Positions 1,141 through 39,012 of a stretch of 39,012 nucleotides of DNA are shown piece by piece. The stretch's first letter is position 1. Each line of letters begins with the position of its first letter. Source of the stretch: a virus; the IMG/VR virus record IMGVR_UViG_3300010430_000201, positions 1-39,012 of that record; one strand, 5' to 3'. The position numbers and the translations under genes are program-made. The notes below the pieces were generated by a model. The model was given only the letters and a program-made list of their open reading frames with translations, ran no database searches and was not told the origin of the DNA.

Positions 1141-1395
1141 ATGTTATTCGATGTAAATGAGTTCGATGGATTCAGAGAAGTAATGCTTAAGTCACAGGTG
1201 ATGGGCATTGTCTGCCTTGGTCACATCATGGATGTAAAAGAAAAGGACCCGCGCAAGGCACACAGGCTAGAGATATACCAGTCAGTACCAGACCTGGCAT
1301 CACACATGAGTATGATTCATGAGCACCTTGTTGCTAGTGGCAACCTCGATGTGTTCCTTCATGGTGTACAAAAGATAGAGGGCAAGGATGAATAA
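1141..1395 (+). CDS. Hypothetical early protein (84 aa)
   Basis: A small soluble protein with no recognised domain. It starts 3 bases after the previous stop, with GAGGTAA just ahead of the ATG, and its last codons overlap the start of the sigma-factor gene by 8 bases, so the two are probably translationally coupled. A cofactor or anti-sigma role is conceivable from that pairing, but nothing in the sequence shows it. Confidence 0.6.
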   Translation: MLFDVNEFDGFREVMLKSQVMGIVCLGHIMDVKEKDPRKAHRLEIYQSVPDLASHMSMIHEHLVASGNLDVFLHGVQKIEGKDE

Positions 1396-1912
1396 CCATA
1401 GCATGTTAAAAAAGATTGATGTCATTGTTGCCAGTGTCATGAAAAGGAATAAGCTATACAACATAGAGACTGAAGTCCTTGTGTCTGCTGCTCACCTTGG
1501 TTATGTCGAGGCAACTAAAAGATTTGACGAGAGTCGTGGCGTGCAGTTCAGTACGTTTGCTGACCGTTGGATTGTTGGCATGATAATGAATGAGGTCAGA
1601 AGCATACTCGGCAACAAGAAGAACAAGAGCAAGCGACCAGTGCAGGACCATGACTATGACTTCTCCTTGTATGGAGACAGTGGGTATGGGGCCGCGAAGA
1701 TGGAGGGGGATCTGGACTTACACCTTATGCTTTGCAACCTGCCATTCACCAAAGCAAAGAAGGATATGTTTAGGCAGTACATATATGGTATGTCAGCAAG
1801 GGAAGTGGGCGAGGAGTACGGCTACTCCACATCACACGCATCAAGGATTATATATGAGATGCGAAAGAAGCTAGCCCTAAACAATATATACAAAACACAC
1901 TGGTCAAACTAA
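1388..1912 (+). CDS. Phage sigma-70-family factor (regions 2 and 4)
   Basis: A 174-residue protein with the architecture of a small sigma factor. Residues about 28-72 look like region 2: LVSAAHLGYVEATKRFD, then FSTFADRWIVGMIMNEVRS, matching the sigma pattern of GL-x-A-x3-FD, the F-x-TFA core helix and the I-x-NE-x-R end. Residues about 120-165 form a region-4 helix-turn-helix (YIYGMSAREVGEEYGYSTSHASRIIYEMRKKL, cited here by its ends at about 128 and 160). The linker is basic. It would bind host RNA polymerase core and redirect it to phage promoters, presumably the late leftward unit, because no phage RNA polymerase is present. A GAGGG motif precedes ATG 1388. A recombination-directionality or HTH-only role is less likely given region 2. 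Confidence 0.8.
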   Translation: MNNHSMLKKIDVIVASVMKRNKLYNIETEVLVSAAHLGYVEATKRFDESRGVQFSTFADRWIVGMIMNEVRSILGNKKNKSKRPVQDHDYDFSLYGDSGYGAAKMEGDLDLHLMLCNLPFTKAKKDMFRQYIYGMSAREVGEEYGYSTSHASRIIYEMRKKLALNNIYKTHWSN

Positions 1913-1949
1913 GTTAATGTTAAATGCCTAGGGCTAAGGAGATTATATC

Positions 1950-2282
1950 ATGTATGAATACAAAGCCAAACTTGTCCGTGTAATTGATGGGGATACTATT
2001 GTTGTGATGGTTGACCTTGGATTTAATGTACATACAAAAGAAAGCATAAGGTTATTAAATACTTGGGCACCAGAAAGATACACGCGCAGAGGGAAGCTGG
2101 TCAGATTGCATACAATATACCACCTAGCTATGCTTGGCTGTTACGAAGATGGAGAATATTTAACTATTCAAACTGAATATAATAAGTCCTTTGACCGCTA
2201 CCTGGCCCACATATTTATTGACGACATCTATATCAATGGCGTTATTGATGACATCATTGCACGCGTGCATGGATTAACTTAA
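1950..2282 (+). CDS. Thermonuclease (SNase)-like protein
   Basis: A 110-residue protein matching the staphylococcal nuclease fold. The N-terminal strand pair VRVIDGDTIVV carries the usual Asp residues. IRLLNTWAPE supplies the Arg34 and Glu42 equivalents of catalytic Arg35/Glu43, and SFDRYLA supplies the second catalytic Arg at 83. It is shorter than secreted SNase and has no signal peptide, so it would act in the cytoplasm, for example on host or invading nucleic acid. A strong AAGGAGA site precedes the ATG. It lies 37 bases downstream of the sigma gene in the same rightward unit. Confidence 0.85.
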   Translation: MYEYKAKLVRVIDGDTIVVMVDLGFNVHTKESIRLLNTWAPERYTRRGKLVRLHTIYHLAMLGCYEDGEYLTIQTEYNKSFDRYLAHIFIDDIYINGVIDDIIARVHGLT

Positions 2283-2322
2283 TGCGTAATGATTATTCTC
2301 TGGTAGAATGTACTATACCATT

Positions 2323-2730
2323 ATGCGACTCGTACCAGGCAAGAGATACATAACCAAGTCAGAGCACATAGTCACAGTACAGTCCATCGTCAATGAACCA
2401 GATGGTGGTGACAATGTAGGTGACATGGCAATGACTACCATCGACGGACCACGTGGCCCACAGATGGAGCTGTATTATCTTGATGGTAAGTACCGCAAAG
2501 AAGAAGAGAGTGACTGGGACATAGTCAAGGAGCTGCCAGGTTCTCCTAAGGAATTCCATATGGAGAAGACACCGAAACTCTTTGATGAAAACGGGCAAAG
2601 GTTATATGCTTTCGTTGAGAAGGCATTGGTATGGGGGAGACCTATGCCGCCTATACGATTACGGACCAGCTCTGATCCTGTTGAGGGATACCAGTACTTG
2701 GAAGTAATGGAAACAACTAAGGAGAGATAA
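2323..2730 (+). CDS. Hypothetical protein (135 aa)
   Basis: Not recognised. The protein is acidic and starts MRLVPGKRY; an N-terminal beta-rich part is likely. The open frame allows ATG 2308, but neither start has a Shine-Dalgarno. I prefer 2323 because TACTAT at 2311-2316 would place a transcription start at that ATG, giving a leaderless message. The stop overlaps the next gene's start by one base (TAATG), indicating coupling. Confidence 0.55.
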   Translation: MRLVPGKRYITKSEHIVTVQSIVNEPDGGDNVGDMAMTTIDGPRGPQMELYYLDGKYRKEEESDWDIVKELPGSPKEFHMEKTPKLFDENGQRLYAFVEKALVWGRPMPPIRLRTSSDPVEGYQYLEVMETTKER

Positions 2731-3383
2731 TGGCTAGTACAATTACAGAACTAGAAATCATTCAGCCTAACATCATGGGTGGTCGCAAGATCAAGATGGA
2801 TAGACTGGGTGTAACCAATCATCGCATCCACTGTGCAGGACAGATGGTAAGCATGATGATGGTAGCTAACCTAGAAGGGGATAGCAACAACACAGCTAGC
2901 ACCATGACCCCTCGTGAAGTACGCGAGCACTGGGTACAATGGAGTGCATTCAAAGAAGAGATTCAATTCGCAAGAGATAACAATGATGGTCCTCTTACTA
3001 AGCTAGAAGATAACCTAGCCCTGCTTATTCCTAACGGAGTAGAGATCCAACAGATCAAGAACCAGAAGTGTAAGCGTGTAGCCCTAGAGCTTCGTCGCCT
3101 TGTACGCATCATGGTATCTGTAGATTCTGCTGGCTCACAGGTAAACGTAGGTGACTCAAGCTTTGCTGATATCCAGGCACAGGTTGTGATCTGTGAGAAG
3201 GCAATGATCCACTACTGGGGAACTGGTGCTGACAACGAGAACACAGGCGTAAGTATGCCTGAGTACAAACACGTTGGCGTGATGATCCCTGACATCGACA
3301 ACGATGAGCATAGCCTATCTGAGGCTAGCGTGGATGGACCTGATATCGGATACTCAGACGCACCTGACACCGCTATTAAATAA
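2730..3383 (+). CDS. Hypothetical protein (217 aa), last gene of rightward unit
   Basis: A soluble, mixed alpha/beta-looking protein without a recognised domain; the C-terminal 40 residues are acidic and low in complexity. AAGGAGAG sits just before the ATG, within the end of the previous gene. Base choice is more regular here than in neighbours (frequent GTA, CTA, CGT), which suggests high expression. It is followed within 6 bases by a strong terminator, so it ends the long rightward transcript that crosses the circle junction. Confidence 0.6.
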   Translation: MASTITELEIIQPNIMGGRKIKMDRLGVTNHRIHCAGQMVSMMMVANLEGDSNNTASTMTPREVREHWVQWSAFKEEIQFARDNNDGPLTKLEDNLALLIPNGVEIQQIKNQKCKRVALELRRLVRIMVSVDSAGSQVNVGDSSFADIQAQVVICEKAMIHYWGTGADNENTGVSMPEYKHVGVMIPDIDNDEHSLSEASVDGPDIGYSDAPDTAIK

Positions 3384-3386
3384 TCA

Positions 3387-3415
3387 TTGGGGGGCATGAC
3401 CCCCCTTGTTATACT
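3387..3415 (+). promoter_or_regulatory. Candidate promoter with extended -10, leaderless start
   Basis: TGTTATACT at 3407-3415 is a good extended -10 (TG-N-TATACT). TTGGGG at 3387-3392 sits 17 bases upstream as a weak -35, inside the terminator stem. Transcription would begin at about the ATG at 3422, giving a message without a leader. This matches the absence of a ribosome site for that gene. Confidence 0.5.
3389..3412 (+). terminator. Rho-independent terminator of rightward unit
   Basis: Six G (3389-3394), a five-base loop CATGA, then six C (3400-3405), followed by TTGTTAT. The GC-only stem with a partial U tract is oriented for plus-strand transcripts. The opposite strand lacks a U tract, so it would not stop leftward transcripts. 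Confidence 0.8.
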
Positions 3416-3421
3416 AACAAC

Positions 3422-3679
3422 ATGAGATTAAAGAAGTGCCTGTTCCAAGGGCAGACTGTGTTTGTTGGTGATGAACCCGATTCAATGATTGAGTGCTGGT
3501 GCCTTGGTTGGGTGACTGATGCTGGTGCAGATAAGTATGTGGTCCTACCAGTAGGTGATGGTGCTGGTATATTCCTATACTCTAATGTTGAGCCAATGGG
3601 ATTAGCGCCGGTTCAAAAAGATATGCCTGATATAAACATAGAAGATGAATTAGGATCAGTGATTAAGTTTCCTCACTGA
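3422..3679 (+). CDS. Hypothetical protein (85 aa)
   Basis: Not recognised. It is acidic with two Cys near residue 25 (IECWCLGW) and a small beta-rich look. It lies between the rightward terminator and the end of the leftward late unit, and its last 7 bases overlap the phosphoesterase stop on the other strand. It has no Shine-Dalgarno but carries its own candidate promoter, which suggests independent expression from a leaderless transcript. Confidence 0.55.
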   Translation: MRLKKCLFQGQTVFVGDEPDSMIECWCLGWVTDAGADKYVVLPVGDGAGIFLYSNVEPMGLAPVQKDMPDINIEDELGSVIKFPH

Positions 3680-4365
3680 TAAGCAGCCACGAACCTGAAG
3701 CCCCACTCATCTATCTCGCCCCAGCCTGGTGTCCACTTACTGAACTTCTTCCTAGCTGTATAGCTTAGGGCTTCTGCATTCCTATCACCAAGGAATCCAA
3801 CATCCAATTCAGCTACGATTTTACCCCCCCATGGATGGTACATTGTACCCCCTCTATGGGTATGCCCATGCACTAGGTTCTCGTGCGACTCCATCATGTG
3901 GTCACCGAGCTTAGTCTTGTAGCCATGGATGAAACACACATCATCAATGTGTAATTCTTTCCTTGGATCATAGATGGTCTTCACTCCGCTGAAGCTCATG
4001 ATGCTTTTAAAGTAATCGTTAACTATGTGTGCGAACTCTGGCCCTGACTGTATGATCTTCTTCGATGGACGTATGTCATGGTTGCCTGCCAGTTGGTAGT
4101 ACTCACACTTCCTTGGTGTTGCTGACTGCACGAACTCCCAGAACTCTATAGCTAGATCCTCTGCTTGCTCCATCTCTTGTTGTGGTGTCATCAGGTTATG
4201 GTTACGACCGAACCTATTGAATGAATACATATCGTATAGGTCACCAACCTGTACTACATAGTCAGGCTTGTACTGCTCTAACCGCTTCATCGCTGCGGCC
4301 AACGCTTTAATGTCATGCCACGGGAAGTGTAAGTCCCCGAAGACAAAGCCTCTGCGTCTTGCCAT
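3673..4365 (-). CDS. Calcineurin-like metallophosphoesterase
   Basis: About 230 residues with all core motifs of the family: GDLH near the N-terminus, VGDLYD, AGNHD and VHGHTHR. These bind two metal ions and hydrolyse phosphomonoesters or phosphodiesters. Phage members include lambda phosphatase-like enzymes and nucleases; the substrate here is unknown. It is the last gene of the leftward block but may have its own promoter immediately upstream. ATG 4365 is preferred over the adjacent TTG 4368, and there is no Shine-Dalgarno. It overlaps the 5' end of the upstream plus-strand frame only if that frame uses TTG 4359. Confidence 0.9.
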   Translation of the reverse strand: MARRRGFVFGDLHFPWHDIKALAAAMKRLEQYKPDYVVQVGDLYDMYSFNRFGRNHNLMTPQQEMEQAEDLAIEFWEFVQSATPRKCEYYQLAGNHDIRPSKKIIQSGPEFAHIVNDYFKSIMSFSGVKTIYDPRKELHIDDVCFIHGYKTKLGDHMMESHENLVHGHTHRGGTMYHPWGGKIVAELDVGFLGDRNAEALSYTARKKFSKWTPGWGEIDEWGFRFVAAYQ

Positions 4366-4372
4366 CAAAGAG

Positions 4373-4402
4373 ATTATCCCATACAGTTTTAATTAATACC
4401 AA
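4373..4402 (-). promoter_or_regulatory. Candidate promoter for metallophosphoesterase
   Basis: On the minus strand, TTGGTA (4402-4397) and GATAAT (4378-4373) are 18 bases apart, and TG precedes the -10 with one base between (TGGGATAAT). The ATG follows the -10 by 7 bases, so the message would be leaderless or nearly so. Confidence 0.5.
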
Positions 4403-4415
4403 CACGGTGCAACGT

Positions 4416-4790
4416 ATGAGACCACAGTCAGCAAAAGCAAAGGGAAGACGGCTATGCAAAAGGTTCAAAGAGATATTGGATTACGTATTCAAGTTCGAAG
4501 ACGGGGACGTACGTGTCACTTCTTCAGGAGTCACGGGCGAGGACATATTGCTTTCCCCTCATGCACAGAGATTATTTCCATACAGTACGGAATGCAAGAA
4601 CCAGGAGACATTACAACTGTGGAAGAGTTGGGACCAAGCGCGCCAGCATTCGACGAAAACTGGGAGGACTCCGGTACTTATTATAAAACGTAATGGTTCA
4701 GAGATGCTGGCCGTAATACCAGCAGATCATTTCGTTTCCCTAGTAAGGGATGCCAATGGAACTGTAGTCGGGGTAGATGATAGCCCTTAA
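4416..4790 (+). CDS. PD-(D/E)XK nuclease, Holliday-junction-resolvase-like
   Basis: About 124 residues. The N-terminus has a basic SAKAKGRR segment. SGVTGEDILLS supplies the metal-binding Asp, and YSTECKNQE supplies the E-x-K of a PD-(D/E)XK fold. Phage proteins with the pattern D-I-x-L-S ... ECKNQE are generally annotated as resolvase-like endonucleases that cut branched DNA before packaging. The start is ATG 4416; a TTG at 4359 would add 19 residues. It lies alone on the plus strand between leftward genes and overlaps the endolysin 3' end by 51 bases antisense, so late leftward transcription would run against it. Confidence 0.75.
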   Translation: MRPQSAKAKGRRLCKRFKEILDYVFKFEDGDVRVTSSGVTGEDILLSPHAQRLFPYSTECKNQETLQLWKSWDQARQHSTKTGRTPVLIIKRNGSEMLAVIPADHFVSLVRDANGTVVGVDDSP

Positions 4791-5174
4791 GTCCTTGCGA
4801 TAATTAACTGGTCTGATTCTAATGAAGGCATCATCCCTTGCAGCATCACGCCTATCGTGTGTTCTGCTACCACCACCGGCAGCTTCGATTACCCTATAAC
4901 TGTCAATGAGAAATGCGACGTGGGTGATTCTTTTATTACTCTCCCCGTAAAACACAAGTCCGCCAACTCTTCGCTTATTCCATGAACCGTGCTCAGCAAA
5001 GTAGTCGTACAACTGCTGACTTGTCCGGTCTCTGGGTGGATCTGCCGAAGCTCCACTACTCTCAAGCAACTCTTGTACAAATCCTGAGCAGTCCATGCCG
5101 TCAATGGTGTCATTGCCACCCCACTTGTATGGTAAACCTAAGAAGCTTATTGCATATACAACCAGTAAATCCAT
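4740..5174 (-). CDS. NlpC/P60-family endolysin
   Basis: A 144-residue peptidoglycan hydrolase of the NlpC/P60 cysteine peptidase family. LGLPYKWGG and MDCSGFV hold the catalytic Cys (about residue 29), and RITHVAF provides the His about 50 residues later. It would cut stem-peptide bonds in the cell wall. There is no signal peptide, so it needs a holin. It lies directly after the lipoprotein gene (TGA-ATG adjacency) in a holin/spanin cluster, which favours a lysis role over the tail-tip role that NlpC/P60 proteins play in lambda-like phages. Confidence 0.85.
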   Translation of the reverse strand: MDLLVVYAISFLGLPYKWGGNDTIDGMDCSGFVQELLESSGASADPPRDRTSQQLYDYFAEHGSWNKRRVGGLVFYGESNKRITHVAFLIDSYRVIEAAGGGSRTHDRRDAARDDAFIRIRPVNYRKDLRAIIYPDYSSIGIPY

Positions 5175-5417
5175 TCACCTTCGTCCCTTTAATCCACAGT
5201 AGTTAATGTAGTTCTCCATGCTGGAACCATGGATTAATACATACTCATCGAGCCTGCTTTGATCGACGATATAATACTTACCATCAGCAGTTAATCCATA
5301 GAACTGACCAGTGTCGCTAGAGTATCTAGCTAGATCTAATGACGGTGCACGTTGTGCTTGCAGGTGTGTACACCCACTAAGTCCTACGAATATGAGACTG
5401 TAAATTACGAAGCGCAT
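5175..5417 (-). CDS. Lipoprotein, candidate o-spanin (Rz1-like)
   Basis: An 80-residue protein. Residues 1-18 form a lipoprotein signal ending in LSGC, so Cys19 or close would be lipidated. The mature part is about 60 residues. I chose ATG 5417 because the longer frame only adds a basic leader before the signal peptide. It overlaps the end of the preceding membrane gene by 41 bases in another frame, the overlapping arrangement typical of Rz/Rz1. Its mature part is less proline-rich than usual for Rz1, so the spanin role is inferred from context. Confidence 0.65.
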   Translation of the reverse strand: MRFVIYSLIFVGLSGCTHLQAQRAPSLDLARYSSDTGQFYGLTADGKYYIVDQSRLDEYVLIHGSSMENYINYCGLKGRR

Positions 5418-5577
5418 CTTGAATCTCCCCTTCAGTCTTAGCCTTGCCAAGCAGACTAATTTTATTTTTAGTTTTTGCTGGCAATTCCTCTGGCCGACCC
5501 TCACGAAGATCTTTAATGAAGCCTAATACTTCTGGTAGAATTTTCAATAGAGCTAGTATCAATGAAACTATTTGCAC
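5377..5577 (-). CDS. Small membrane protein, candidate i-spanin or lysis accessory
   Basis: A 66-residue protein with a hydrophobic N-terminus (residues 1-21, IVSLILALLKILPEVLGFI) followed by a charged helical tail. It starts with GTG 5577 behind GAGGAAC and overlaps the previous stop (TAGTG). Its place between a holin-like gene and a lipoprotein it overlaps fits an inner-membrane spanin, but it is short for that family. It could also be an amphipathic lysis accessory peptide. Confidence 0.55.
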   Translation of the reverse strand: MQIVSLILALLKILPEVLGFIKDLREGRPEELPAKTKNKISLLGKAKTEGEIQDALRNLQSHIRRT

Positions 5578-5777
5578 TAGTTCCTCAACCTAATCTTGTC
5601 TTTAGTAATTAATCTTAATGCAATAGCAAGTCCACCCCATACACCGGATACAATTAGTGGGTTGGCTTGGATGAAAGCCATTAAATTAAAGTTAAAGAAC
5701 TCTGCAATGATTGGGCTTAGTGCTGTTAGTACACCAAACCATGCTGTCTTACTTGTCCAAATAGGCTTTTTGTTCAT
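5577..5777 (-). CDS. Holin-like membrane protein
   Basis: A 66-residue protein. A short charged N-terminus with WTSKTAWFGVL is followed by two hydrophobic segments (about 13-31 and 40-58) and a basic end (TKDKIRLRN). This is the layout of small two-segment holins whose N-terminus reads K-x-W-x-SKT-x-W. It would permeabilise the inner membrane to release the endolysin. ATG 5777 has AAGGAGAG immediately upstream; the longer frame to 5849 is not supported. Confidence 0.7.
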   Translation of the reverse strand: MNKKPIWTSKTAWFGVLTALSPIIAEFFNFNLMAFIQANPLIVSGVWGGLAIALRLITKDKIRLRN

Positions 5778-6009
5778 ACTCTCTCCTTGGTATATATTTA
5801 ATTCCGTTGTGTTTAAGCATATCATCTTGCTTGTCTTCAATGCGATCAAGTCTTTTAATGAAGTACTTGTTGCTAACTGCCGTTACATCCTTGGTTGTGA
5901 AGTTTGCGTAAACAAATGTAGTTAACCCACCAACAATCATAGCTCCACCCAGGAAGGTGCTAGCCAACCAGGTGATCCATTGCTTTGGGGTTAAGTACCA
6001 TTCCTTCAT
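5749..6009 (-). CDS. Membrane-anchored coiled-coil protein of lysis cluster
   Basis: An 86-residue protein with one transmembrane segment (about 13-34, ITWLASTFLGGAMIVGGL) and a charged helical tail with RLDRIEDKQDDML. The topology of N-terminal anchor plus periplasmic coil also suits an i-spanin, so it competes with the 5377-5577 gene for that role. ATG overlaps the previous stop (ATGA), and its end overlaps the holin-like gene by 29 bases. Confidence 0.6.
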   Translation of the reverse strand: MKEWYLTPKQWITWLASTFLGGAMIVGGLTTFVYANFTTKDVTAVSNKYFIKRLDRIEDKQDDMLKHNGIKYIPRREYEQKAYLDK

Positions 6010-6308
6010 AGTAGCAAGTCTCTAATTAACTCTATCTTCTGTTGTGTAGAAAGTGTTTGCCAATCGTCCTTAAGCTTCTTATGGTCAGCCATCTTCTTGT
6101 CGAACTTAGCTTGTCGCTCATTAATGATTGCGGTCTTACAAGCAGCCACCTTCGCACCGTAGTCTTCACAGGCAGGCTCTACTAATTCACACTGTGCTTT
6201 AGTATCATAAGAGTTCTTGCCGTGGTTACAGCCCATGCCTACTGGCACCCATGGTGCAGCATTAGCCGTTGATGTAACAAATAGTGATATCAAGATTATT
6301 GTAAACAT
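6006..6308 (-). CDS. Small secreted cysteine-containing protein
   Basis: About 100 residues. A signal peptide (residues 1-17, FTIILISLFVTSTANA, cleavage after ANA) is followed by a mature domain with five Cys (MGCNHG, AQCELVEPACEDYG, AACK) and a lysine-rich helical tail. It is probably exported to the periplasm, where disulfides could form. ATG 6308 has GAGGTG just upstream. The function is unknown; its position between the receptor-binding-type gene and lysis genes suggests a role in lysis or exclusion. Confidence 0.6.
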   Translation of the reverse strand: MFTIILISLFVTSTANAAPWVPVGMGCNHGKNSYDTKAQCELVEPACEDYGAKVAACKTAIINERQAKFDKKMADHKKLKDDWQTLSTQQKIELIRDLLL

Positions 6309-7180
6309 GAACACCTCACTGTTAAGTAATCAGGATCTTGCGAAGAACCCGTATGTGATCCACACAACACCCTTACTGATGTACTAGATCCAGAAATCTT
6401 CCGTGGATTACAATAGATACCACCCTGTTCGCCATTGGCGTTACAGAATGGAGTATCACTACACACAGAGTTTAGATTGATTGTAAGGTCACCAGTCGCT
6501 GTGTCTGTATATGAACTAACCATTGATTCCGGGTCACCGCCTGTTGCTGTAGAAGGTGTACCAGCAGAGTACTGTACTTGAATAGAGAACAGATACCTAT
6601 CAGTGTCAGAGTTGTTGGCGTAGTTTCCTCCACCCCCTCCGCCGCCACCGAAGGTAGTCATTAAATCTAAACCAATCCAGAAGTCATCAACAAAGAGTTC
6701 GGCAGCATCACCAGCCGCTGTCATCTCTACATGTAAACTACCTGATGTTGGGCAGGTAAATGTACTTCTAGCAATGGTGTAGTTGGTGGCCGCCGCACTT
6801 ACTGTAATCGCTGTACCTAATGTTGAACCGTTGTTCGCTTCGATATCAATGTTGGCTGTACCACCACCCTTATACTTTACAAATAATGCACAAGCAGCAC
6901 CATACAGTGCGGGTGGAATAGTCATGCTTGCATTCTCTGCAATCTGTGCAGCAGCAGAGGGATCAAAAGAAAGGGCCAAGCTACCATTAGCTACATTGGC
7001 TGCGGTTGTTGTTGTAGCTAACGTACCACCTGATGTGGTCCATGACCCAATTCCATTCTCGAAGCCTGGGTTCTCTGCCATGTTTTGAAACAGGAAGTAC
7101 TGATCCTCTACCGCCTTAAAGCCAGCGGCTATTAGGAAAGTTAAAACCAGAGCTAAGAAAAGTCCTTTTAAAAAATCCAT
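6296..7180 (-). CDS. Probable carbohydrate-binding surface / tail-associated protein
   Basis: A 294-residue protein. A hydrophobic N-terminal segment (residues 4-20, FLKGLFLALVLTFLIAAG) is followed by a CBM-like beta-sandwich (about 33-180: NPGFENGIGSWTTSGG at the start and LFVDDFWIGLDL at the end). An eight-glycine hinge then leads to a C-terminal domain with six or more Cys. It begins in a TAATG overlap with the tail-fibre stop, so a role in receptor recognition is likely. The N-terminal hydrophobic stretch is odd for a virion protein; a membrane-anchored surface protein is the alternative. Confidence 0.55.
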   Translation of the reverse strand: MDFLKGLFLALVLTFLIAAGFKAVEDQYFLFQNMAENPGFENGIGSWTTSGGTLATTTTAANVANGSLALSFDPSAAAQIAENASMTIPPALYGAACALFVKYKGGGTANIDIEANNGSTLGTAITVSAAATNYTIARSTFTCPTSGSLHVEMTAAGDAAELFVDDFWIGLDLMTTFGGGGGGGGNYANNSDTDRYLFSIQVQYSAGTPSTATGGDPESMVSSYTDTATGDLTINLNSVCSDTPFCNANGEQGGIYCNPRKISGSSTSVRVLCGSHTGSSQDPDYLTVRCSCLQ

Positions 7181-31828: not shown

Positions 31829-32035
31829 ATGTTTAAAGATATGAGCACAGAAGAATTTCTTAAGTGGCACTACGAGTGGACCATGAGCTTTGCATACCCA
31901 GTAAAGATAGACGGTGTTGAACCACCACCATTAGGCAGCGGGCTGGGCTGGTCAGCAAAGGATAAAGAATTAATAGATTCCATTAAGGAAACAACAAAGC
32001 GTAAACAACAACCAAAGGAGAAAGACAATGAGTAA
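31829..32035 (+). CDS. Small protein at head of ubiquitin-like cassette (68 aa)
   Basis: ATG 31829 follows AGAAAGGA by 7 bases, much better than the GTG/ATG-type starts of the longer frame. The product is soluble: an N-terminal aromatic helix (TEEFLKWHYEWTMSFAY), a Pro/Gly middle (GVEPPPLGSGLGWS) and a lysine-rich tail (TTKRKQQPKEKDNE). No family is recognised. Its end overlaps the ubiquitin-like gene by 8 bases, so it is probably co-translated with the cassette and might be a substrate, adaptor or regulator. The 200-base gap before it is TG-rich and has no gene. Confidence 0.6.
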   Translation: MFKDMSTEEFLKWHYEWTMSFAYPVKIDGVEPPPLGSGLGWSAKDKELIDSIKETTKRKQQPKEKDNE

Positions 32036-32228
32036 AGCAAGCGTAAAAGTACAGGTAATCGGTGGTCAAGCACAAGATTTACAAGCCAATAATGTTGGTG
32101 AAGTAAAGAGTGCAATGAATGCTGGTAACTATACTGCTTCTGTTAATGGTCAACCACAAGACGACGGTTATCAGTTGCGTGAAGGTGACTTCATTACATT
32201 GGGACTAGCCACTAAAGGTGGACGATAG
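32028..32228 (+). CDS. Ubiquitin-like beta-grasp modifier ending in Gly-Gly-Arg
   Basis: A 66-residue protein. An N-terminal strand (SVKVQVIGG), a second strand, a short helix (NNVGEVKSAMNAG), a YTASVNGQPQ strand and LREGDFITLG match the ThiS/MoaD/ubiquitin beta-grasp order, including the VNG and GD turns. The last residues are ATKGGR: a diglycine followed by one Arg, so a peptidase would have to remove Arg before adenylation of Gly. AAAGGAGA precedes the ATG. It heads a four-gene cassette with E2, JAB and E1 partners, which strongly supports a modifier role. The C-terminal TKG resembles PRTRC protein C. A sulfur carrier is the alternative but would not need an E2. Confidence 0.8.
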   Translation: MSKASVKVQVIGGQAQDLQANNVGEVKSAMNAGNYTASVNGQPQDDGYQLREGDFITLGLATKGGR

Positions 32229-33720
32229 TAATAACTCTGACCAGGGGAGTACAAGTGACTCCCTTGGTTCTACTTTAAGTAGACTGTTTCGTGAAACATA
32301 CGGACCAGGTGTACGTGCGATTGCAGAGGGACGTGCGGGCAGGGGCAGGATAACAGCAACAGATATAATAGCAAGTGGCACGAGGCCCTTACCTATTAGA
32401 CTTGGTGATGAAGTATGGCGTAACGCATTTGAAAGGCCATCACCCACAATAACAGTTACTGCCTCTAACTTTGATGCACTAAGAGGCATAAGCGTACAGG
32501 GTGTAGTGCTCGACGATCATGATGATCTTATTAGATACAATAAACTACCACAACAACAACAAAGAAAGGACAACAACATGAGTGTAGCTGAAGCATTAAA
32601 GGTCAAGCAGCACATTGATTACTTCCAGCTAACTAATAGCTGGGATAATTTATACGACGACAAAAAAATAACAGCAAAGAAACATGGTGAGCTATTGGAT
32701 ACAGCCCAGTACTTTAGGGATGTAGCACTAGCAGTACAATTAGGCTGGGATAAGATAGACATGACCCCCTTTATAATTGAATCAAAGGGCGGCCACATAA
32801 TTAACACAGATAGAGTAGCACTTAACAAGCTGATATTTGCAGCAGCTAACGGCAAGCAAGAGGACATTGACAGTAAGGTAATACTTAAGGAAGCAATTAA
32901 GATTAACTTCAGTCGCGTGGTTCAAGGGCTACAGGAAGACAAGAACAGGCAGCTTGCATATGCCTATGAAAAGTATTCAGGATACATGGAGTATTTAAGC
33001 AAGGCACTAAGGAAGCAGCTAACAATAGATAAGATAAGAGGCAAGGACTTAGACATTGGCCAACAGATAAAAGATATAGTTAGCTCGGGTAACTATGAGT
33101 TCGTTAGGTATGCACCAGGCAGCAACACAATTATATTTGTAACCAAGCCAGTGTATAATTCTTACGTCGTACCTGAACACCAGATTAATCACAACAACCT
33201 ACCGCTTGGTAGATACGCTGTGTTCTTAAGGATAGACTGTGCTGAACTTAAGGTATACCCATATGAGGATAACTTAAGCGTCGGCAGCTACTTCCACCCA
33301 CACGTAAGTGATACTGGCTATGTTTGTTGGGGTAACGTAAGCGATAGAGCAACAGAGACACACGCAAACTATCAGCTTGTTGAGCTTATGTATCTATTGA
33401 ATGAGGTACTTAATAACTACAACCACGACAACCCATATGCACAGCTCTATCGTTTCCAGAAGCCAGATGAAAATGCAGTACAGCCCAGCTTCTATCGACA
33501 CTACTGTGGTAACTGTGAGGATGAGTACATATATGTAGAGTATGAGACTTATGACTGGGATTGTGGAAACTGTGATGCTAATAACGATACAGTAGGAGAG
33601 TACGCACCCACATATACAAGTGGCAGAGAGACATACATAATAACTAACCCACAAAGCTACTGGCCTATACCATTGGTAGTAAGTGAAGAAACAATAAAGA
33701 AGAAAGGACAAGATAAATGA
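32218..33720 (+). CDS. E2-like ubiquitin-conjugating protein with C-terminal zinc ribbon
   Basis: Up to 500 residues. The E2-like core is about residues 290-400. A strand-rich part (NTIIFVTKPVYNSYV, RYAVFLRIDCAELKVYPY) leads to FHPHVSDTGYVCWG, where HPH is at 360-362 and Cys370 is the predicted thioester site; this mirrors HPN-x-G-x-(I/V)-C of E2 enzymes and Prok-E2 families. The C-terminus has CGNC (430-433) and CGNC (449-452), a zinc ribbon that might bind substrate or act in an E3-like way. Residues 1-120 are an unrecognised Ser/Gly-rich extension. GTG 32218 lies inside the diglycine codons of the previous gene; ATG 32578 behind AGAAAGGA gives a 380-residue form that keeps the E2 and ribbon. 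The 3' end overlaps the JAB gene (ATGA). Confidence 0.78.
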   Translation: MDDSNNSDQGSTSDSLGSTLSRLFRETYGPGVRAIAEGRAGRGRITATDIIASGTRPLPIRLGDEVWRNAFERPSPTITVTASNFDALRGISVQGVVLDDHDDLIRYNKLPQQQQRKDNNMSVAEALKVKQHIDYFQLTNSWDNLYDDKKITAKKHGELLDTAQYFRDVALAVQLGWDKIDMTPFIIESKGGHIINTDRVALNKLIFAAANGKQEDIDSKVILKEAIKINFSRVVQGLQEDKNRQLAYAYEKYSGYMEYLSKALRKQLTIDKIRGKDLDIGQQIKDIVSSGNYEFVRYAPGSNTIIFVTKPVYNSYVVPEHQINHNNLPLGRYAVFLRIDCAELKVYPYEDNLSVGSYFHPHVSDTGYVCWGNVSDRATETHANYQLVELMYLLNEVLNNYNHDNPYAQLYRFQKPDENAVQPSFYRHYCGNCEDEYIYVEYETYDWDCGNCDANNDTVGEYAPTYTSGRETYIITNPQSYWPIPLVVSEETIKKKGQDK

Positions 33721-34553
33721 GCGAGGTAATACTAAGACGTAATGTGTTTAATAAAATTATGCACATGATTGACAAGGCTAAGAAGGATGAGGTAAGTGGC
33801 TTCGGCATGTGTACCTATGAGGATGGAGCGTTCACTGTTAATGAAGCAATCATGATTAAGCAAGAGGAACAAACATCAGCAAGCACAACGATGGATGCAC
33901 AAGCAGCAGCTAATGCCATGTTTGAACTAAAGGATTATGGTGACTACCTTTGGTGGTGGCACACGCATCCTAACATGGGTGTGTTCTGGTCAAGCACAGA
34001 CACAACAGCTATCAACGAGCTAAGTGAGCACGGTGTAGTAGTGGCTACTGTATTCAATGAGAAACAGGAAATGAAATCAGCAGTACAACAAGGCAAGCCC
34101 TTCGGTGTTGCTGACCTAGATATACCTACCTTTATTGAGAATGAATACATCGACGAGGCAACCCTTAAGGCATGGGATAAAGAGTACGAAGATAACAAAG
34201 CGATACCTAAACCATTGGTACCAAACACACCAGCTAGGTGGGACGAATGGTATGATGATGAAGATTATTATTACAGCAACTATGGTATGTACGGCGGTAA
34301 GAATTATATCGGTGGTGCTGGCGGTACTGTTACTGAGATAAAGAAAAAGGAAAAGGCAAAGGACAGTACAATTAAAGAGATACTTGAACAGCTTGGCTTC
34401 GATAAGAAAATCAAACCAAACAAGGCACAACAGAAAGAGATACGCAGGCTGGCACCAGCATGGGCAGCGCTGCTTGAGTCAGAGAGAACAGATGCACTAT
34501 GTAACATATGGAACAACACAGACTGGGACACTAGGATAGGGGGCGTATACTAA
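33717..34553 (+). CDS. JAB/JAMM metallo-isopeptidase (deubiquitinase-like)
   Basis: A 278-residue protein. The N-terminal 130 residues form a JAB/MPN domain with every JAMM ligand: Glu25 (DEVSGFG), His82 and His84 (WWHTHP), Ser92 and Asp95 (SSTD), in the H-x-H-x7-S-x2-D spacing. It would hydrolyse the peptide after diglycine, either maturing the modifier (removing its final Arg) or removing it from targets. Residues about 160-220 are acidic/aromatic and Gly/Tyr-rich. The C-terminal 60 residues form a charged helical domain (ILEQLGFDKKIKPNKAQQKE). It overlaps both neighbours (ATGA, TAATG), so it is made with the E2 and E1. Confidence 0.93.
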   Translation: MSEVILRRNVFNKIMHMIDKAKKDEVSGFGMCTYEDGAFTVNEAIMIKQEEQTSASTTMDAQAAANAMFELKDYGDYLWWWHTHPNMGVFWSSTDTTAINELSEHGVVVATVFNEKQEMKSAVQQGKPFGVADLDIPTFIENEYIDEATLKAWDKEYEDNKAIPKPLVPNTPARWDEWYDDEDYYYSNYGMYGGKNYIGGAGGTVTEIKKKEKAKDSTIKEILEQLGFDKKIKPNKAQQKEIRRLAPAWAALLESERTDALCNIWNNTDWDTRIGGVY

Positions 34554-35251
34554 TGGAACACTTAACAAGACAAGCAGATTTAATACCAAGCAGCGCACTA
34601 ACTAAACAAATTAATATCATTGGTGCTGGTGCAGTAGGCTCATGGCTTACGCTTGCGCTAGCTAAGATGGGGTTCAGTAACCTTACTGTCTTTGATGACG
34701 ATGACATCGAGGTAGAGAACATGAACTGCCAGTGTTATTCTTTCAACGACATTGGTAAGAAGAAAGTAACAGCATTAAAGGAGAGAGTACATGAACTTAC
34801 TGGAACAAATATCAACGCAGTTGTATCACGTTATGAAGGCGACCGTGCCATGGCTGGCATTGTTGTTTCTGCTGTTGATTCTATGGCTAGCCGTCGGCAG
34901 GCATGGGAGATACATGCTAAGTATGGCACTCAAACCAATCTATTCATCGACCCTCGCATGGGTGCGGAAGAAGCTCTATGCTATGCGTATCAACCGATGA
35001 AGCCAGATCACGTCAAGCAATACGAAGCAACACTATACTCTGATGATGATGCAGTACATGAGCCATGCACACGCAAGGCCACCATGTATACAGCACTCAT
35101 GTTGAGTGGGTTGGTGGCACAGATCATCAAAGAATTTTTAACGAACAAAGGAAATCACTTGCAAGTTTCCAACTGGTCGATTAAGAATGGAGCGTTCGTA
35201 GGATTTACAGAGGAAAAAGTTTTAAGTTTAAGTAAAGAACGCACTCAGTAG
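34553..35251 (+). CDS. E1-like / ThiF-family activating enzyme
   Basis: A 232-residue protein with a Rossmann nucleotide-binding start (IIGAGAVGSWL, residues 22-32). The adenylation motif follows: VFDDDDIEVENMNCQ (46-60) with Asp, Glu and Asn, a conserved Lys cluster near 70, and SAVDSMASRR (106-115). HEPCTRK places a likely catalytic or structural Cys at 172, ahead of a helix (YTALMLSGLVAQII). It would adenylate the modifier's terminal Gly and pass it to the E2. It is short, like ThiF/MoeB and PRTRC ThiF enzymes, and lacks a separate ubiquitin-fold domain. It is the last gene of the coupled cassette. Confidence 0.93.
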   Translation: MEHLTRQADLIPSSALTKQINIIGAGAVGSWLTLALAKMGFSNLTVFDDDDIEVENMNCQCYSFNDIGKKKVTALKERVHELTGTNINAVVSRYEGDRAMAGIVVSAVDSMASRRQAWEIHAKYGTQTNLFIDPRMGAEEALCYAYQPMKPDHVKQYEATLYSDDDAVHEPCTRKATMYTALMLSGLVAQIIKEFLTNKGNHLQVSNWSIKNGAFVGFTEEKVLSLSKERTQ

Positions 35252-35734: not shown

Positions 35735-35943
35735 TGAGCAACATAAAGAATGCAATGCCTGAACCAACAGGTGATAGGCCCTTCATGCCTACACCACAGG
35801 ATCTACAACAACAGATAGACGAGTTGTCTTTCCGTATAGCAGACATGGAACACAACGTAACTAAGACAACAGCTATGCTTGAAAATTTAATTCAGTTAAT
35901 GGGGAAGGTAGTAGTAAACAATGAGAATAGAGAGCAACAGTAG
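35734..35943 (+). CDS. Small coiled-coil protein (69 aa)
   Basis: Pro-rich start (MPEPTGDRPFMPTPQDL) then a coiled coil (QQIDELSFRIADMEHNVTKT) to the end. It is coupled to the membrane protein by TAATG and overlaps the exonuclease gene by 23 bases. It could partner the membrane protein. No family is recognised. Confidence 0.6.
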   Translation: MSNIKNAMPEPTGDRPFMPTPQDLQQQIDELSFRIADMEHNVTKTTAMLENLIQLMGKVVVNNENREQQ

Positions 35944-36856
35944 TATTAACACGGCACTAGAGTGCCCAAAGAAATACCAGTTTAAATATATACACAAGGT
36001 CGAGTCACCCGTGTATCCGCACGCCGCTGCCTATGGCACGTTCGTGCATTACTTTAAGGAGTGTGAACACAAGGGGGTGGACCCAGATAGAACAGCTATC
36101 TTCCGTGAGTATATCGACAAGTACCCTGAGTATGAGGACGACATTCAATGGGACATATGGCTGGCCGAGAAGGTAAGCTACCAACACAAGAGGTTCTGGG
36201 ATAACGTCGATGGTACAATAGGTAGCCCATCCAATGATGTGCTTGAGTTCAAGGATGTCGAGGGTGAGTGGGGATTTAACATCGACCACGAACACAAACA
36301 AGTTGGTAAGCGTGACGGTTATGTATACCATAAGGACATAGAGAAGTTCTTTCTTTACGAGCTAAAGACTAGCGGCACCACCAACCGTGAGGCATACAAG
36401 CACAAGCTAGAGAATGATTCACAGATAGACGTGAACATCCTCGCAATACAAGAGGACAAGCAGCCAGTGAGTGGTGTGTTCTATGATATAATCTGGAAGC
36501 CAGCGATAAGAATAAAGACTGGTCGAAAGAAACTACCCGATGAAACACGGGATGAATTCTATAACCGTATCGTCGATACATATGCCAGTGAGCCACGCAA
36601 ATACTTTGAAAGATTGCCAGTGTTAAGAACACAAGCAGCACTAATACATGGGTACACTGACCTATCACAGAAGTTTAAGTTAATGGATGCAATGAGTGAG
36701 CATGGATACCCACGCAACACAGGTGCATGTCTTAACTTTAATAAGCTGTGTACTTTCTTTGATGTATGTACTCAGCCTGACTCACCAGATTTATTAAAGC
36801 AGTACAACAGGCGGCATAAGAAACTGCCGGAGATAACAGAGGAGGGACAGCAATGA
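35921..36856 (+). CDS. PD-(D/E)XK exonuclease with Fe-S cluster (RecB/Cas4-type)
   Basis: A 311-residue protein. The N-terminal ALECPKKYQFKYI holds Cys15, then GTFVHYF. The nuclease core is at about 120-175, where GKRDGYVYH gives the Asp and FLYELKTSG gives the E-x-K, followed by a QID-x-N-I-LAIQ motif. Three C-terminal Cys (270, 277, 283) with Cys15 make the four-Cys iron-sulfur clasp of Cas4/AddB nucleases. It would resect DNA ends for the recombination system encoded downstream (Sak4-like ATPase and SSB-like protein). Confidence 0.88.
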   Translation: MRIESNSSINTALECPKKYQFKYIHKVESPVYPHAAAYGTFVHYFKECEHKGVDPDRTAIFREYIDKYPEYEDDIQWDIWLAEKVSYQHKRFWDNVDGTIGSPSNDVLEFKDVEGEWGFNIDHEHKQVGKRDGYVYHKDIEKFFLYELKTSGTTNREAYKHKLENDSQIDVNILAIQEDKQPVSGVFYDIIWKPAIRIKTGRKKLPDETRDEFYNRIVDTYASEPRKYFERLPVLRTQAALIHGYTDLSQKFKLMDAMSEHGYPRNTGACLNFNKLCTFFDVCTQPDSPDLLKQYNRRHKKLPEITEEGQQ

Positions 36857-37026
36857 CAAAGGCAGAGGCACTGAAGGAGTTAAACAATCTTGCTGGATTC
36901 GCAGAGGTACAGCTTGATGGGATTCACAGCACCCTAGTACAAGCAACACTAAACAAACTAAGAACATACATAATGTTTTCACAACCAGGAGAGATACATG
37001 AAGATACAACAGACACAGGACAGTAA
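36853..37026 (+). CDS. Small protein between exonuclease and Sak4 (57 aa)
   Basis: A short gene in an ATGA overlap with the exonuclease stop. Its 3' end overlaps the Sak4-like gene by 29 bases in another frame. GAGGGACAG precedes the ATG. The product is mostly a helix (TKAEALKELNNLAGFAEVQL) with an acidic end. No family is recognised; it may be a small partner of the recombination proteins. Confidence 0.55.
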   Translation: MTKAEALKELNNLAGFAEVQLDGIHSTLVQATLNKLRTYIMFSQPGEIHEDTTDTGQ

Positions 37027-37708
37027 GAGTCGGCACTTAAATGTGCTGGTGTATGGGGAGCCAGGCAGTGGTAAGACTACCTTCGCTGGCACATGCATCA
37101 AGAAGTTTAAGCCCATCATCCTGAGCGCAGAGAGTGGATTGCTTTCCCTTCGTGACATGGGTGACTTCGACTACATTAAGATAGAAAAGTTTCAGGATCT
37201 TATTGATGCACACGACTACCTTGCATTGAAGGACAACCCATATGATACTGTAATCATTGACTCTCTTACTGAAATACAGCAGGAGTGTATGGCTCATATC
37301 ATTCAGAGCAAGGACGATGAGGTCGTAGCTCTTGGTGACTACAAGCTGCCGAACATTAAGGACTGGGGTGCGCTTGGCTCAGTGATGACCAAGACTATTA
37401 AGTACTTCCGCAACATGGATAAGAACTTAATCGTTACTGCACTAGCAGACAGGGTAACGAATGAAGAAACACTTGAAACTAAAATCCAACCTAGCCTGCA
37501 AGGTAAGCTTAAGGACACAGTGGCTGCATACTTTGATGAGGTACTCTACCTACACACAAGAGAAAGAATCAAAGACGACAAGAAAGAAACAGTCCACGTC
37601 ATAAGCACAGAGAACAACGGCAAGTGGATAGCTAAGGACAGGAGTGGCAAGCTGGCATCACTGGTTAAGCCTGACTTCTGTGAGATATACGAGGCTATCT
37701 ATGGATGA
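36998..37708 (+). CDS. Sak4-like RecA-fold ATPase (single-strand annealing/recombination)
   Basis: A 236-residue protein with Walker A VYGEPGSGKTTFAG (residues 18-31), an ILSAESGLLSL segment, and Walker B DTVIIDSLTE. It matches phage AAA_24/Sak4 proteins, a core-only RecA relative that promotes single-strand annealing with SSB. The neighbours (Cas4-type exonuclease, SSB-like protein) make a complete recombination module. CAGGAGAG precedes the ATG within the upstream small gene. Confidence 0.88.
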   Translation: MKIQQTQDSKSRHLNVLVYGEPGSGKTTFAGTCIKKFKPIILSAESGLLSLRDMGDFDYIKIEKFQDLIDAHDYLALKDNPYDTVIIDSLTEIQQECMAHIIQSKDDEVVALGDYKLPNIKDWGALGSVMTKTIKYFRNMDKNLIVTALADRVTNEETLETKIQPSLQGKLKDTVAAYFDEVLYLHTRERIKDDKKETVHVISTENNGKWIAKDRSGKLASLVKPDFCEIYEAIYG

Positions 37709-37907
37709 CCCACGAGACGACAGATTACAACGATCATACAATAGGATGGAGCAAGGACTAAGGGACATAGTACTTAAGCCATTCCTTGATTCACCAGTGG
37801 ATATGTTGGCGGCTAACTACAGGCGCACAGCACAGGTTACATTAAAAGAAGCAAGACTAATACTAGAAGGAGAAGAAGAAAATGAAACTAAAATTCACAG
37901 AGGATGA
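37701..37907 (+). CDS. Small helical protein (68 aa)
   Basis: ATG 37701 overlaps the Sak4-like stop (ATGGATGA), giving a coupled start; the longer frame is not supported. The product is a charged helix-rich protein (DDRLQRSYNRMEQGLRDIVL). It ends inside the SSB-like gene with a 26-base overlap. The function is unknown. Confidence 0.55.
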   Translation: MDDPRDDRLQRSYNRMEQGLRDIVLKPFLDSPVDMLAANYRRTAQVTLKEARLILEGEEENETKIHRG

Positions 37908-38289
37908 GATGACAGGCAGTACTTACTTGGGTGAGGGCACACACATTGCCATGCTTACTGATGTTGAGATGAAGAAGACAGAAGCTGGTAACCAGATGGC
38001 TGTGCTTACTCTTAAGTCTGGCATGAAGGAACGCAAGGAACACATCGTGATGACACCAAAGACTAAGTGGAAGATGGGTCAAGTGATGTCGGGGTTTGGA
38101 TTCAAACCTAACCAAGAGATTGATTTCCCTGCCGACGTGGTTGGTAAGTCATGCAACATAACAGTAGCTAAGGATGGAACATATAAGAAGGAGGACGGTA
38201 CTGTCGTCGATAGACACAAGGTAGTTGAGTGGGTGCCTGTTGAATCAAGTACTGCACAGAACTTTGAGACAGACGACATACCATTTTAA
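37882..38289 (+). CDS. Single-strand DNA-binding protein, DUF669-like
   Basis: A 135-residue protein. A beta-rich OB-fold-like body (LKFTEDEMTGSTYLGEGTH, NQMAVLTLKSG) ends with a short acidic tail (NFETDDIPF), the hallmark tip of SSB proteins that recruits partners. The family is found beside Sak4 in many phages. AAGGAGAAG precedes the ATG. It would coat single-stranded DNA during annealing and host-driven replication. Confidence 0.8.
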   Translation: MKLKFTEDEMTGSTYLGEGTHIAMLTDVEMKKTEAGNQMAVLTLKSGMKERKEHIVMTPKTKWKMGQVMSGFGFKPNQEIDFPADVVGKSCNITVAKDGTYKKEDGTVVDRHKVVEWVPVESSTAQNFETDDIPF

Positions 38290-38643: not shown

Positions 38644-39012
38644 TATGCAGTTAGCATTAACAGATAAACAATATGAAAGAACATTAACAACACGACCGCA
38701 AGCAAACAGGATTGTTCGGTACATACCAGAGACTGACATGCGCAACGGACACTATGGTTTGTTTAAGGTTGCACGCAAGGCTGGCCTTGATGTAAGAACG
38801 ATAGACCCAGGTAGTTTTGTTGTGTTCACAAACAGAAACTTAGACAAGATGAAAGTGTTTGGTGGTGGCGGTATGCTTGTTAGTTATATCTCTCTACCAA
38901 GGGGGCACAGGATAAACGTTAATGTTATTAGAGAACTACCAAGGTTCTTTAAGGGGGGTAGCTTTGACTACACAGCAGCAGTCGGAAGAACAATTACAAG
39001 ATCGCTCACCAC
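38644..39012 (+). CDS. Hypothetical early protein, truncated by window end
   Basis: The frame opens at ATG 38644 directly after the HTH gene's stop and runs to the window end; on the circle it continues to TGA at 128-130, for about 125 residues. The start is MQLALTDKQYERTLTTRPQA. The body has mixed strands and Gly-rich VFGGGGMLVSYI, followed by a basic C-terminus. No domain is recognised. The ORF is too long and regular to be chance. Confidence 0.65.
38890..39012. repeat. Terminal direct repeat (right copy), assembly overlap
   Basis: Exact copy of 1-123. It should be counted once in the circular genome. Confidence 0.9.

Follow-up and report, generated by a model that had tools for sequence, protein, structure and literature searches.

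A predicted phage-encoded ubiquitin-like conjugation cassette and its viral relatives

The cassette and its genes

We analysed a viral genome record, IMG/VR record IMGVR_UViG_3300010430_000201 (positions 1 to 39,012; hereafter the window, 39,012 bases), which contains four adjacent plus-strand genes encoding a ubiquitin-like modifier, an E2-like protein, a JAMM protease and an E1 enzyme (Table 1). These genes very probably constitute a working, phage-owned and reversible ubiquitin-like conjugation pathway. They are tightly packed in the order modifier, E2, JAMM, E1, and the junctions are formed by 11-nt, ATGA and TAATG overlaps, in agreement with the coordinates of the original prediction, which was made from the sequence alone. 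The motifs listed in that prediction are also in place: the diglycine near the end of the modifier, here within the tail TKGGR, the HPH-x7-C signature of the E2-like protein, the E...HxH-x7-S-x2-D pattern of the JAMM protein, and GAGAVG and VFDDDDIEVEN in the E1. Good ribosome-binding sites precede the modifier and JAMM genes. The upstream open reading frame (ORF) of 68 amino acids (aa), which has no match in Pfam or PHROG, probably shares a transcript with the modifier.

Neither the modifier nor the E2-like protein has a convincing match in Pfam, NCBIfam, PADLOC or PHROGs, and therefore both were examined through their relatives and predicted structures. Iterated profiles found homologues of both, occupying the same gene order in other phages. 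The original prediction had named two kinds of result that would speak against it, namely no beta-grasp in the modifier or no UBC fold around Cys370 of the E2-like protein, and homologues with unconserved Cys, HPH and GG residues. Both were looked for, and the opposite was found in each case, as described below. Loci from relatives are denoted by L numbers.

The modifier

The AlphaFold2 model of the modifier, built with 26 relatives, is a beta-grasp with mean pLDDT (predicted local distance difference test) 85.9. The best match among solved structures is SAMP2 bound to JAMM1 (Z 8.5), followed by TtuB; MoaD, SUMO and ISG15 rank lower. The Gly-Gly pair is kept in 26 of the 31 distinct homologues, and four more have KAG or KGA.

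The region following the Gly-Gly pair is variable. Most relatives have K-x-G-G followed by 0-5 residues, and L009 has 13 further residues. In L065 and L084 a fused domain of about 110 aa follows GG. L031 (8876-9286) encodes two tandem modifier domains, each with a terminal GG, as in linear diubiquitin. In the clade of crAss and Flavobacterium phages the beta-grasp ends with K-x-S-G, which is nearly always followed by an extension of 100-200 aa; proteins of 200-290 aa with the modifier at their N-terminus are encoded at L003, L005, L006, L008, L035, L051, L054, L055, L064, L068, L073 and L079, while in L066 it instead stops one residue past KSG. These tails, fusions, tandems and extensions look like precursors for the JAMM protease, and independently point to a need for cleavage of the modifier. 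The only relative without a JAMM match in its genome is Xanthomonas phage PhiXhv-12 (228 kb, Pfam-level search), and its probable modifier ends exactly at GG. Besides this probable modifier, the PhiXhv-12 locus (L004, 2736-6612) encodes an E1 and an E2 of 892 aa that is Cys-rich at its ends.

The E2-like protein

The E2-like protein consists of a variable N-terminal part, a long helix, a UBC domain and a C-terminal CxxC...CxxC tail that resembles a zinc ribbon, with zinc binding itself predicted from the cysteine pattern. Residues 225-434 were modelled by AlphaFold2 with 20 relatives (pLDDT 80.3). The predicted domain contains a helix, a four-strand meander, the active-site loop and further helices. 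Nearly all of the 50 best solved-structure matches are UBC proteins, with middling Z-scores of up to 7.9, and UBE2W (2mt6) is the third. The family profile alone ranks UBE2A first among PDB sequences (E value 0.05), aligning HPH with HPN, Cys370 with the catalytic Cys of Rad6-type E2s, and NPDDPY with NPNSPA. The same motif alignment is produced by the window segment alone against a Ube2i protein (E value 1.3). The assignment to E2 is made because nearly all top matches are E2s, the motifs align, and the gene context agrees.

His360, Cys370, Gly372 and Leu398 are invariant in 20 relatives with 10-23% identity to the window protein, and P361 and H362 are kept in at least 90% of them. A second clade of E2s keeps H-S-H...C-x-G, invariant in 14 sequences, and a third one keeps H-P-[YF]...C-[FM]-G; of these two other clades, only the third is clearly linked to the window E2 by profiles. 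The hhalign E value of the window E2 is 5e-6 against the E2 of the marine clade, while the link to the crAss-clade E2 is weak (1e-3). The E2 alignments are insufficiently conserved for scanning contigs. The E2 alone produced no match in a single-protein scan of viral contigs, and tblastn of the E2 in phage records also found none. A 668-aa protein encoded at L017 (6927-8933) carries its E1 domain towards the C-terminus; its first 360 residues, which match no family, may represent a fused E2-like region.

The JAMM protease and the E1

The JAMM protein scores above the Pfam cut-offs of two families, Prok-JAB (28.1 bits, cut-off 25) and JAB (26.5 bits, cut-off 22.5). The HxH-x7-S-x2-D motif is whole in 78 of 82 homologues, and the remaining four are ORFs cut by contig ends. 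The protein is predicted to trim the modifier and to undo conjugates.

The E1 also scores above its Pfam cut-off (ThiF, 81 bits, cut-off 28.1). It has an N-terminal RQ motif as in MoeB and ThiF, together with the GxGxxG motif. R6, GxG, D48, D50, N56, Q60, K71, D109, R114, R135 and C172 are invariant in ten nearer relatives, and the seven phage E1s with an invariant Cys172 include those of crAss001 and FpV4. The best PADLOC matches of this protein are 'E1-E2' models.

In sequence the E1 is nearest to the ThiF/MoeB/TcdA types, and MoaD and TtuB have the same fold as the modifier. Both would suit a sulfur carrier similar to ThiS, MoaD or CysO, with the E1 making a thiocarboxylate and the JAMM protein acting like Mec+. 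However, a UBC-type E2 with the catalytic Cys and HPH is conserved alongside, and the window ORFs scanned, a set that did not include some small ORFs, yielded neither a sulfurtransferase nor a cysteine desulfurase or cysteine synthase. Thus a role in sulfur transfer is most improbable.

Table 1. Features of the cassette and of the adjacent plus-strand genes in the window
Feature	Positions	Strand	Basis or remark
Ubiquitin-like modifier, 66 aa, beta-grasp, C-terminus ATKGG-R	32028..32228	+	AlphaFold2, structural matches, homologues with the same tail
Codons of terminal Gly64-Gly65 of the modifier	32217..32222	+	overlap the E2 start codon; scissile before Arg66
E2-like conjugating enzyme, 500 aa, GTG start	32218..33720	+	AlphaFold2, solved-structure matches, profile match to UBE2A
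E2 active-site signature HPHVSDTGYVC (H360-P361-H362-x7-C370)	33295..33327	+	conserved in 20 relatives
CxxC-x15-CxxC tail of the E2 (Cys430, 433, 449, 452)	33505..33573	+	sequence
JAMM/JAB metallo-(iso)peptidase, 278 aa	33717..34553	+	Pfam PF14464, PF01398 above cut-off
JAMM Glu25	33789-33791	+	sequence
JAMM metal motif HTHPNMGVFWSSTD (H82-T-H84-x7-S-x2-D95)	33960..34001	+	sequence
E1/ThiF-type activating enzyme, 232 aa, one adenylation domain	34553..35251	+	ThiF 9e-23, 81 bits
E1 Cys172, predicted thioester cysteine	35066..35068	+	invariant in 7 phage E1s and 10 nearer relatives
ORF of 68 aa, function unassigned	31829..32035	+	overlaps the modifier gene by 8 nt
PD-(D/E)XK exonuclease	35921..36856	+	family library matches
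Sak4-like ssDNA-annealing ATPase	36998..37708	+	library match; this gene immediately follows E1 throughout one clade of relatives
Single-strand DNA binding protein	37882..38289	+	phrog_378, 1.2e-8

Distribution in phages

A single-protein scan of viral contigs with the E1 alone produced no match, and an alignment was needed. The starting alignment contained the E1s of FpV4, crAss001, cr85_1, DAC15, bajarodcaudo and PhiXhv-12. With it, 334 viral-contig stretches encoding an E1 relative were found, and 80 loci were fetched. In these, iterated profiles placed the JAMM gene next to E1 almost everywhere and recovered homologues of the window E2 and modifier in many. Loci were then collapsed at 80% E1 identity, and the 48 with at least 3.5 kb of upstream sequence were retained. 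The JAMM gene is present in 47 of them, a gene with the E2 motif just upstream in 43, and a recognisable modifier in 38. The four-gene set, the search for which in other phages had been proposed along with the original prediction, is complete in 34 loci. Among 500 control ORFs, by comparison, 11 contain the E2 motif under a loose definition and 1 under a strict one.

The lineage extends from 25-kb contigs to genomes of over 200 kb, including gut crAss-like phages. Cultured relatives are Bacteroides phage crAss001, Flavobacterium psychrophilum phages and Xanthomonas phage PhiXhv-12. The genes at L005 (crAss001, 1259-5669; gp76-gp79), L002 (FpV4, 2595-6606), L003, L006 and L008 look like the same conjugation system. 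In the cultured crAss-like and Flavobacterium phages the cassette genes are labelled 'thiamine biosynthesis protein ThiF', 'metalloprotease' or 'hypothetical'. The literature searched, which excluded most subscription papers, among them the Bil papers and Burroughs et al., contained no account of a phage-encoded system with all four parts. The cassette is not a one-off, as hundreds of phages, including cultured ones, have relatives of it.

In cellular genomes, about 11 full-length E1 relatives were observed, all in metagenome-assembled genomes (MAGs), and several of these have the whole cassette. Two cassette copies, L092 and L094, are found in one Myxococcales MAG; one of them lies directly before a primase gene and may belong to a mobile element. 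In a Parcubacteria MAG (L090) the cassette adjoins the rpoD and alaS genes and seems to be chromosomal. A quick tree was built from 134 E1/ThiF proteins. In it, the phage E1s and ten MAG copies form one group (SH-aLRT, the Shimodaira-Hasegawa-like approximate likelihood ratio test, 90), separate from PRTRC proteins and from those of the cellular ThiF/MoeB/TcdA types, and the window E1 sits with L009, L010, L011 and L015. The closest relatives are viral contigs, and the 334 viral E1 matches outnumber the roughly 11 full-length cellular ones; both support ownership of the system by the phage, as had been proposed.

Comparison with known systems

The closest analogue in gene order is the PRTRC system of plasmids (operon type 6d of Iyer et al. 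2006, PMC1779556), where the order modifier-E2-JAMM-E1 is the same, as seen in the Cupriavidus plasmid NZ_CP032520. Both systems consist of stand-alone genes on mobile elements, and ParB-like genes occur near some of the phage cassettes too. However, the phage E1 scores 53.8 bits against PRTRC_ThiF (TIGR03736), the cut-off being 144.75, and falls outside PRTRC in the tree. The PRTRC E2 (PRTRC B) has no histidine before the Cys, whereas the phage E2 has HPH; the PRTRC JAMM protein has an extra N-terminal domain, whereas the phage one has a C-terminal extension. No PRTRC ParB, E or F gene was found among the genes around the window cassette. Profile comparison of the window E2 and modifier with one PRTRC sequence each produced no match. 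Membership in PRTRC is excluded by the E1 score, the E2 active site, the JAMM layout and the missing ParB, E and F genes.

The anti-phage Bil operon (BilABCD) of bacteria also has a modifier, an E2, a JAMM protease and an E1. BilD consists of an inactive and an active adenylation domain, BilA contains two ubiquitin-like domains, and the active site of BilB is a Cys-Glu-His-His arrangement (PMC11354881). In contrast, the phage E1 has 232 aa and one ThiF domain, the modifier is a single 66-aa domain, the E2 has a conserved HPH before Cys370, and the owner is a phage. The single-domain E1, the single modifier and the different E2 active site rule out a Bil operon.

Type II CBASS with Cap2/Cap3 and 6A-MBL share the E1/E2/JAMM chemistry. 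These systems have a fused E1 and E2 and no modifier gene of their own, whereas in the phage E1 and E2 are separate genes accompanied by a modifier. No nucleotidyl cyclase was found among the neighbouring proteins scanned. Given the separate ORFs and the lack of a cyclase among these neighbours, the Cap2 assignment fails.

A ubiquitin-like domain beside a JAB domain is also found in the lambda-type tail assembly proteins I and K (PMC1779556). However, these belong to the tail module and have neither E1 nor E2, whereas the window cassette includes both and lies outside the tail module, and thus it is not an I/K pair.

An HPH motif that replaces HPN and is spaced seven residues from the Cys is a hallmark of the Ube2W family, members of which tag N-terminal amino groups (PMC4630614). 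The phage E2 has HPH with the same spacing. It differs in its long additional regions and zinc-ribbon-like tail, and shares about 8% identity with UBE2W across the part that aligns. As the HPH active site is otherwise a mark of eukaryotic Ube2W, it hints, by analogy, at conjugation to protein N-termini.

Genome context and possible targets

The window has a 123-nt direct terminal repeat (1-123 = 38890-39012), and the record is therefore probably a whole genome. Portal, major head, tail tubular, internal virion and terminase (TerL, TerS) genes of T7 type are present, which confirms the assignment to a small podovirus. The structural genes are on the minus strand. The cassette is on the plus strand, divergent from them, and is followed by the exonuclease, Sak4-type ATPase and single-strand DNA binding protein genes. 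As it shares the strand of this replication and recombination arm and diverges from the virion genes, its expression is probably early. A scan for promoters and terminators gave results no better than shuffled sequences. No DNA polymerase was recognised among the window proteins scanned. Elsewhere in the window there are a sigma-70 region 2-like protein (1388-1912), barely above the Pfam cut-off, and a calcineurin-like phosphoesterase (3673-4368).

This arrangement bears on the possibility that virion proteins carry the modifier, whether those of superinfecting phages, leading to competitor exclusion, or the phage's own, as self-marking. In Bil, a ubiquitin-like tag on a tail protein does have a phenotype. 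However, the cassette lies outside the tail module and on the strand opposite to the virion genes, and in relatives TerL is not near it (7 contigs only); we consider virion tagging distinctly unlikely.

In relatives the cassette adjoins Sak4 in one clade, and in the crAss/Flavobacterium clade it lies by genes for primase, uracil-DNA glycosylase (UDG), RusA and an exonuclease. Thus it is inside replication and recombination modules in the window and in two clades. In a whole-contig test, Sak4 was near the cassette (13 contigs, P 1e-4, mostly one clade), whereas DnaB (20 contigs) and PolA (19 contigs) were on the whole not near it (combined P 0.8). A general closeness of the cassette to replication genes was rejected by this result for DnaB and PolA. 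Replication and recombination proteins are a tentative first guess for the targets in the window phage; such a target is not a general one, given that in the relatives of 150-180 kb neither DnaB nor PolA lies close to the cassette.

Alternatively, an active pathway could serve counter-defence, tagging and inactivating host immune proteins or the host polymerase. The position in the early arm, the presence of the cassette in many unrelated phages of very different size, and its distance from core replication genes in large relatives, as expected for accessory functions, are all in favour of it. However, no known anti-defence genes adjoin the cassette in the annotated loci, and in two clades the cassette keeps its place beside Sak4, primase, UDG and exonuclease genes. 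Counter-defence is possible, if somewhat doubtful.

A ClpA/B-like ATPase gene adjoins the cassette at L013 (8941-11457). At L023 (12314-13909), L026 (11074-13569) and kin, a classical AAA ATPase and a ParB-like protein are encoded about 3-4 kb downstream. Neighbours of these kinds occur in large phages, including some of the 150-180 kb relatives. Such neighbours would be expected if the modifier directed proteins to an AAA+ unfoldase or protease as a degradation tag. However, no ATPase gene of this kind was recognised in the window scans, and none recurs in other clades, which makes this use very unlikely.

The proposed pathway

Computation supports the identity of the parts and their folds, the conservation of the active sites and of the co-occurrence of the genes, and ownership by viruses; the activity of the pathway, the order of transfer, early expression and the targets are inferred. 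In the predicted conjugation pathway, the JAMM protease would remove the last residue of the modifier, leaving Gly65 at its end. The E1, which most likely forms a homodimer as MoeB and ThiF do, would adenylate Gly65 and become loaded with the modifier as a thioester at Cys172. The modifier would then be handed on to Cys370 of the E2, with the HPH motif serving the oxyanion. The E2 would attach it to lysine or, by analogy with the HPH-type Ube2W, to protein N-termini, and the zinc-ribbon tail could perhaps steer the E2. The same JAMM protease could remove the modifier from the targets. The most likely use would be to switch proteins of the phage, or host proteins that it has captured, in the course of takeover and DNA metabolism.

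Several observations weigh against this interpretation. No E3 gene was recognised. In relatives of 150-180 kb, DnaB and PolA are 40-125 kb from the cassette. The structural matches of the E2 are individually weak (best Z 7.9, Foldseek E value 0.09, profile E value 0.05). A wider proposal is that phages own a distinct, old, virus-specific E1/E2/modifier/JAMM branch, with a Ube2W (HPH)-type E2 tagging N-termini or lysines in ordinary infection; we consider it rather unlikely.

Significance

Ubiquitin-like conjugation in bacteria is known mainly as an anti-phage weapon, and some giant viruses and African swine fever virus encode E2s. The label 'thiamine biosynthesis protein' that most of the relatives in phages with cultured hosts carry is misleading. 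The active site of the phage E2 is closer to those of eukaryotic E2s than to BilB, which bears on the origin of eukaryotic E2s. As relatives of the cassette are present in phages with cultured hosts, what a phage tags can be tested at once. A conserved phage-owned version of such a system would mean that bacterial viruses run ubiquitin-like signalling of their own.

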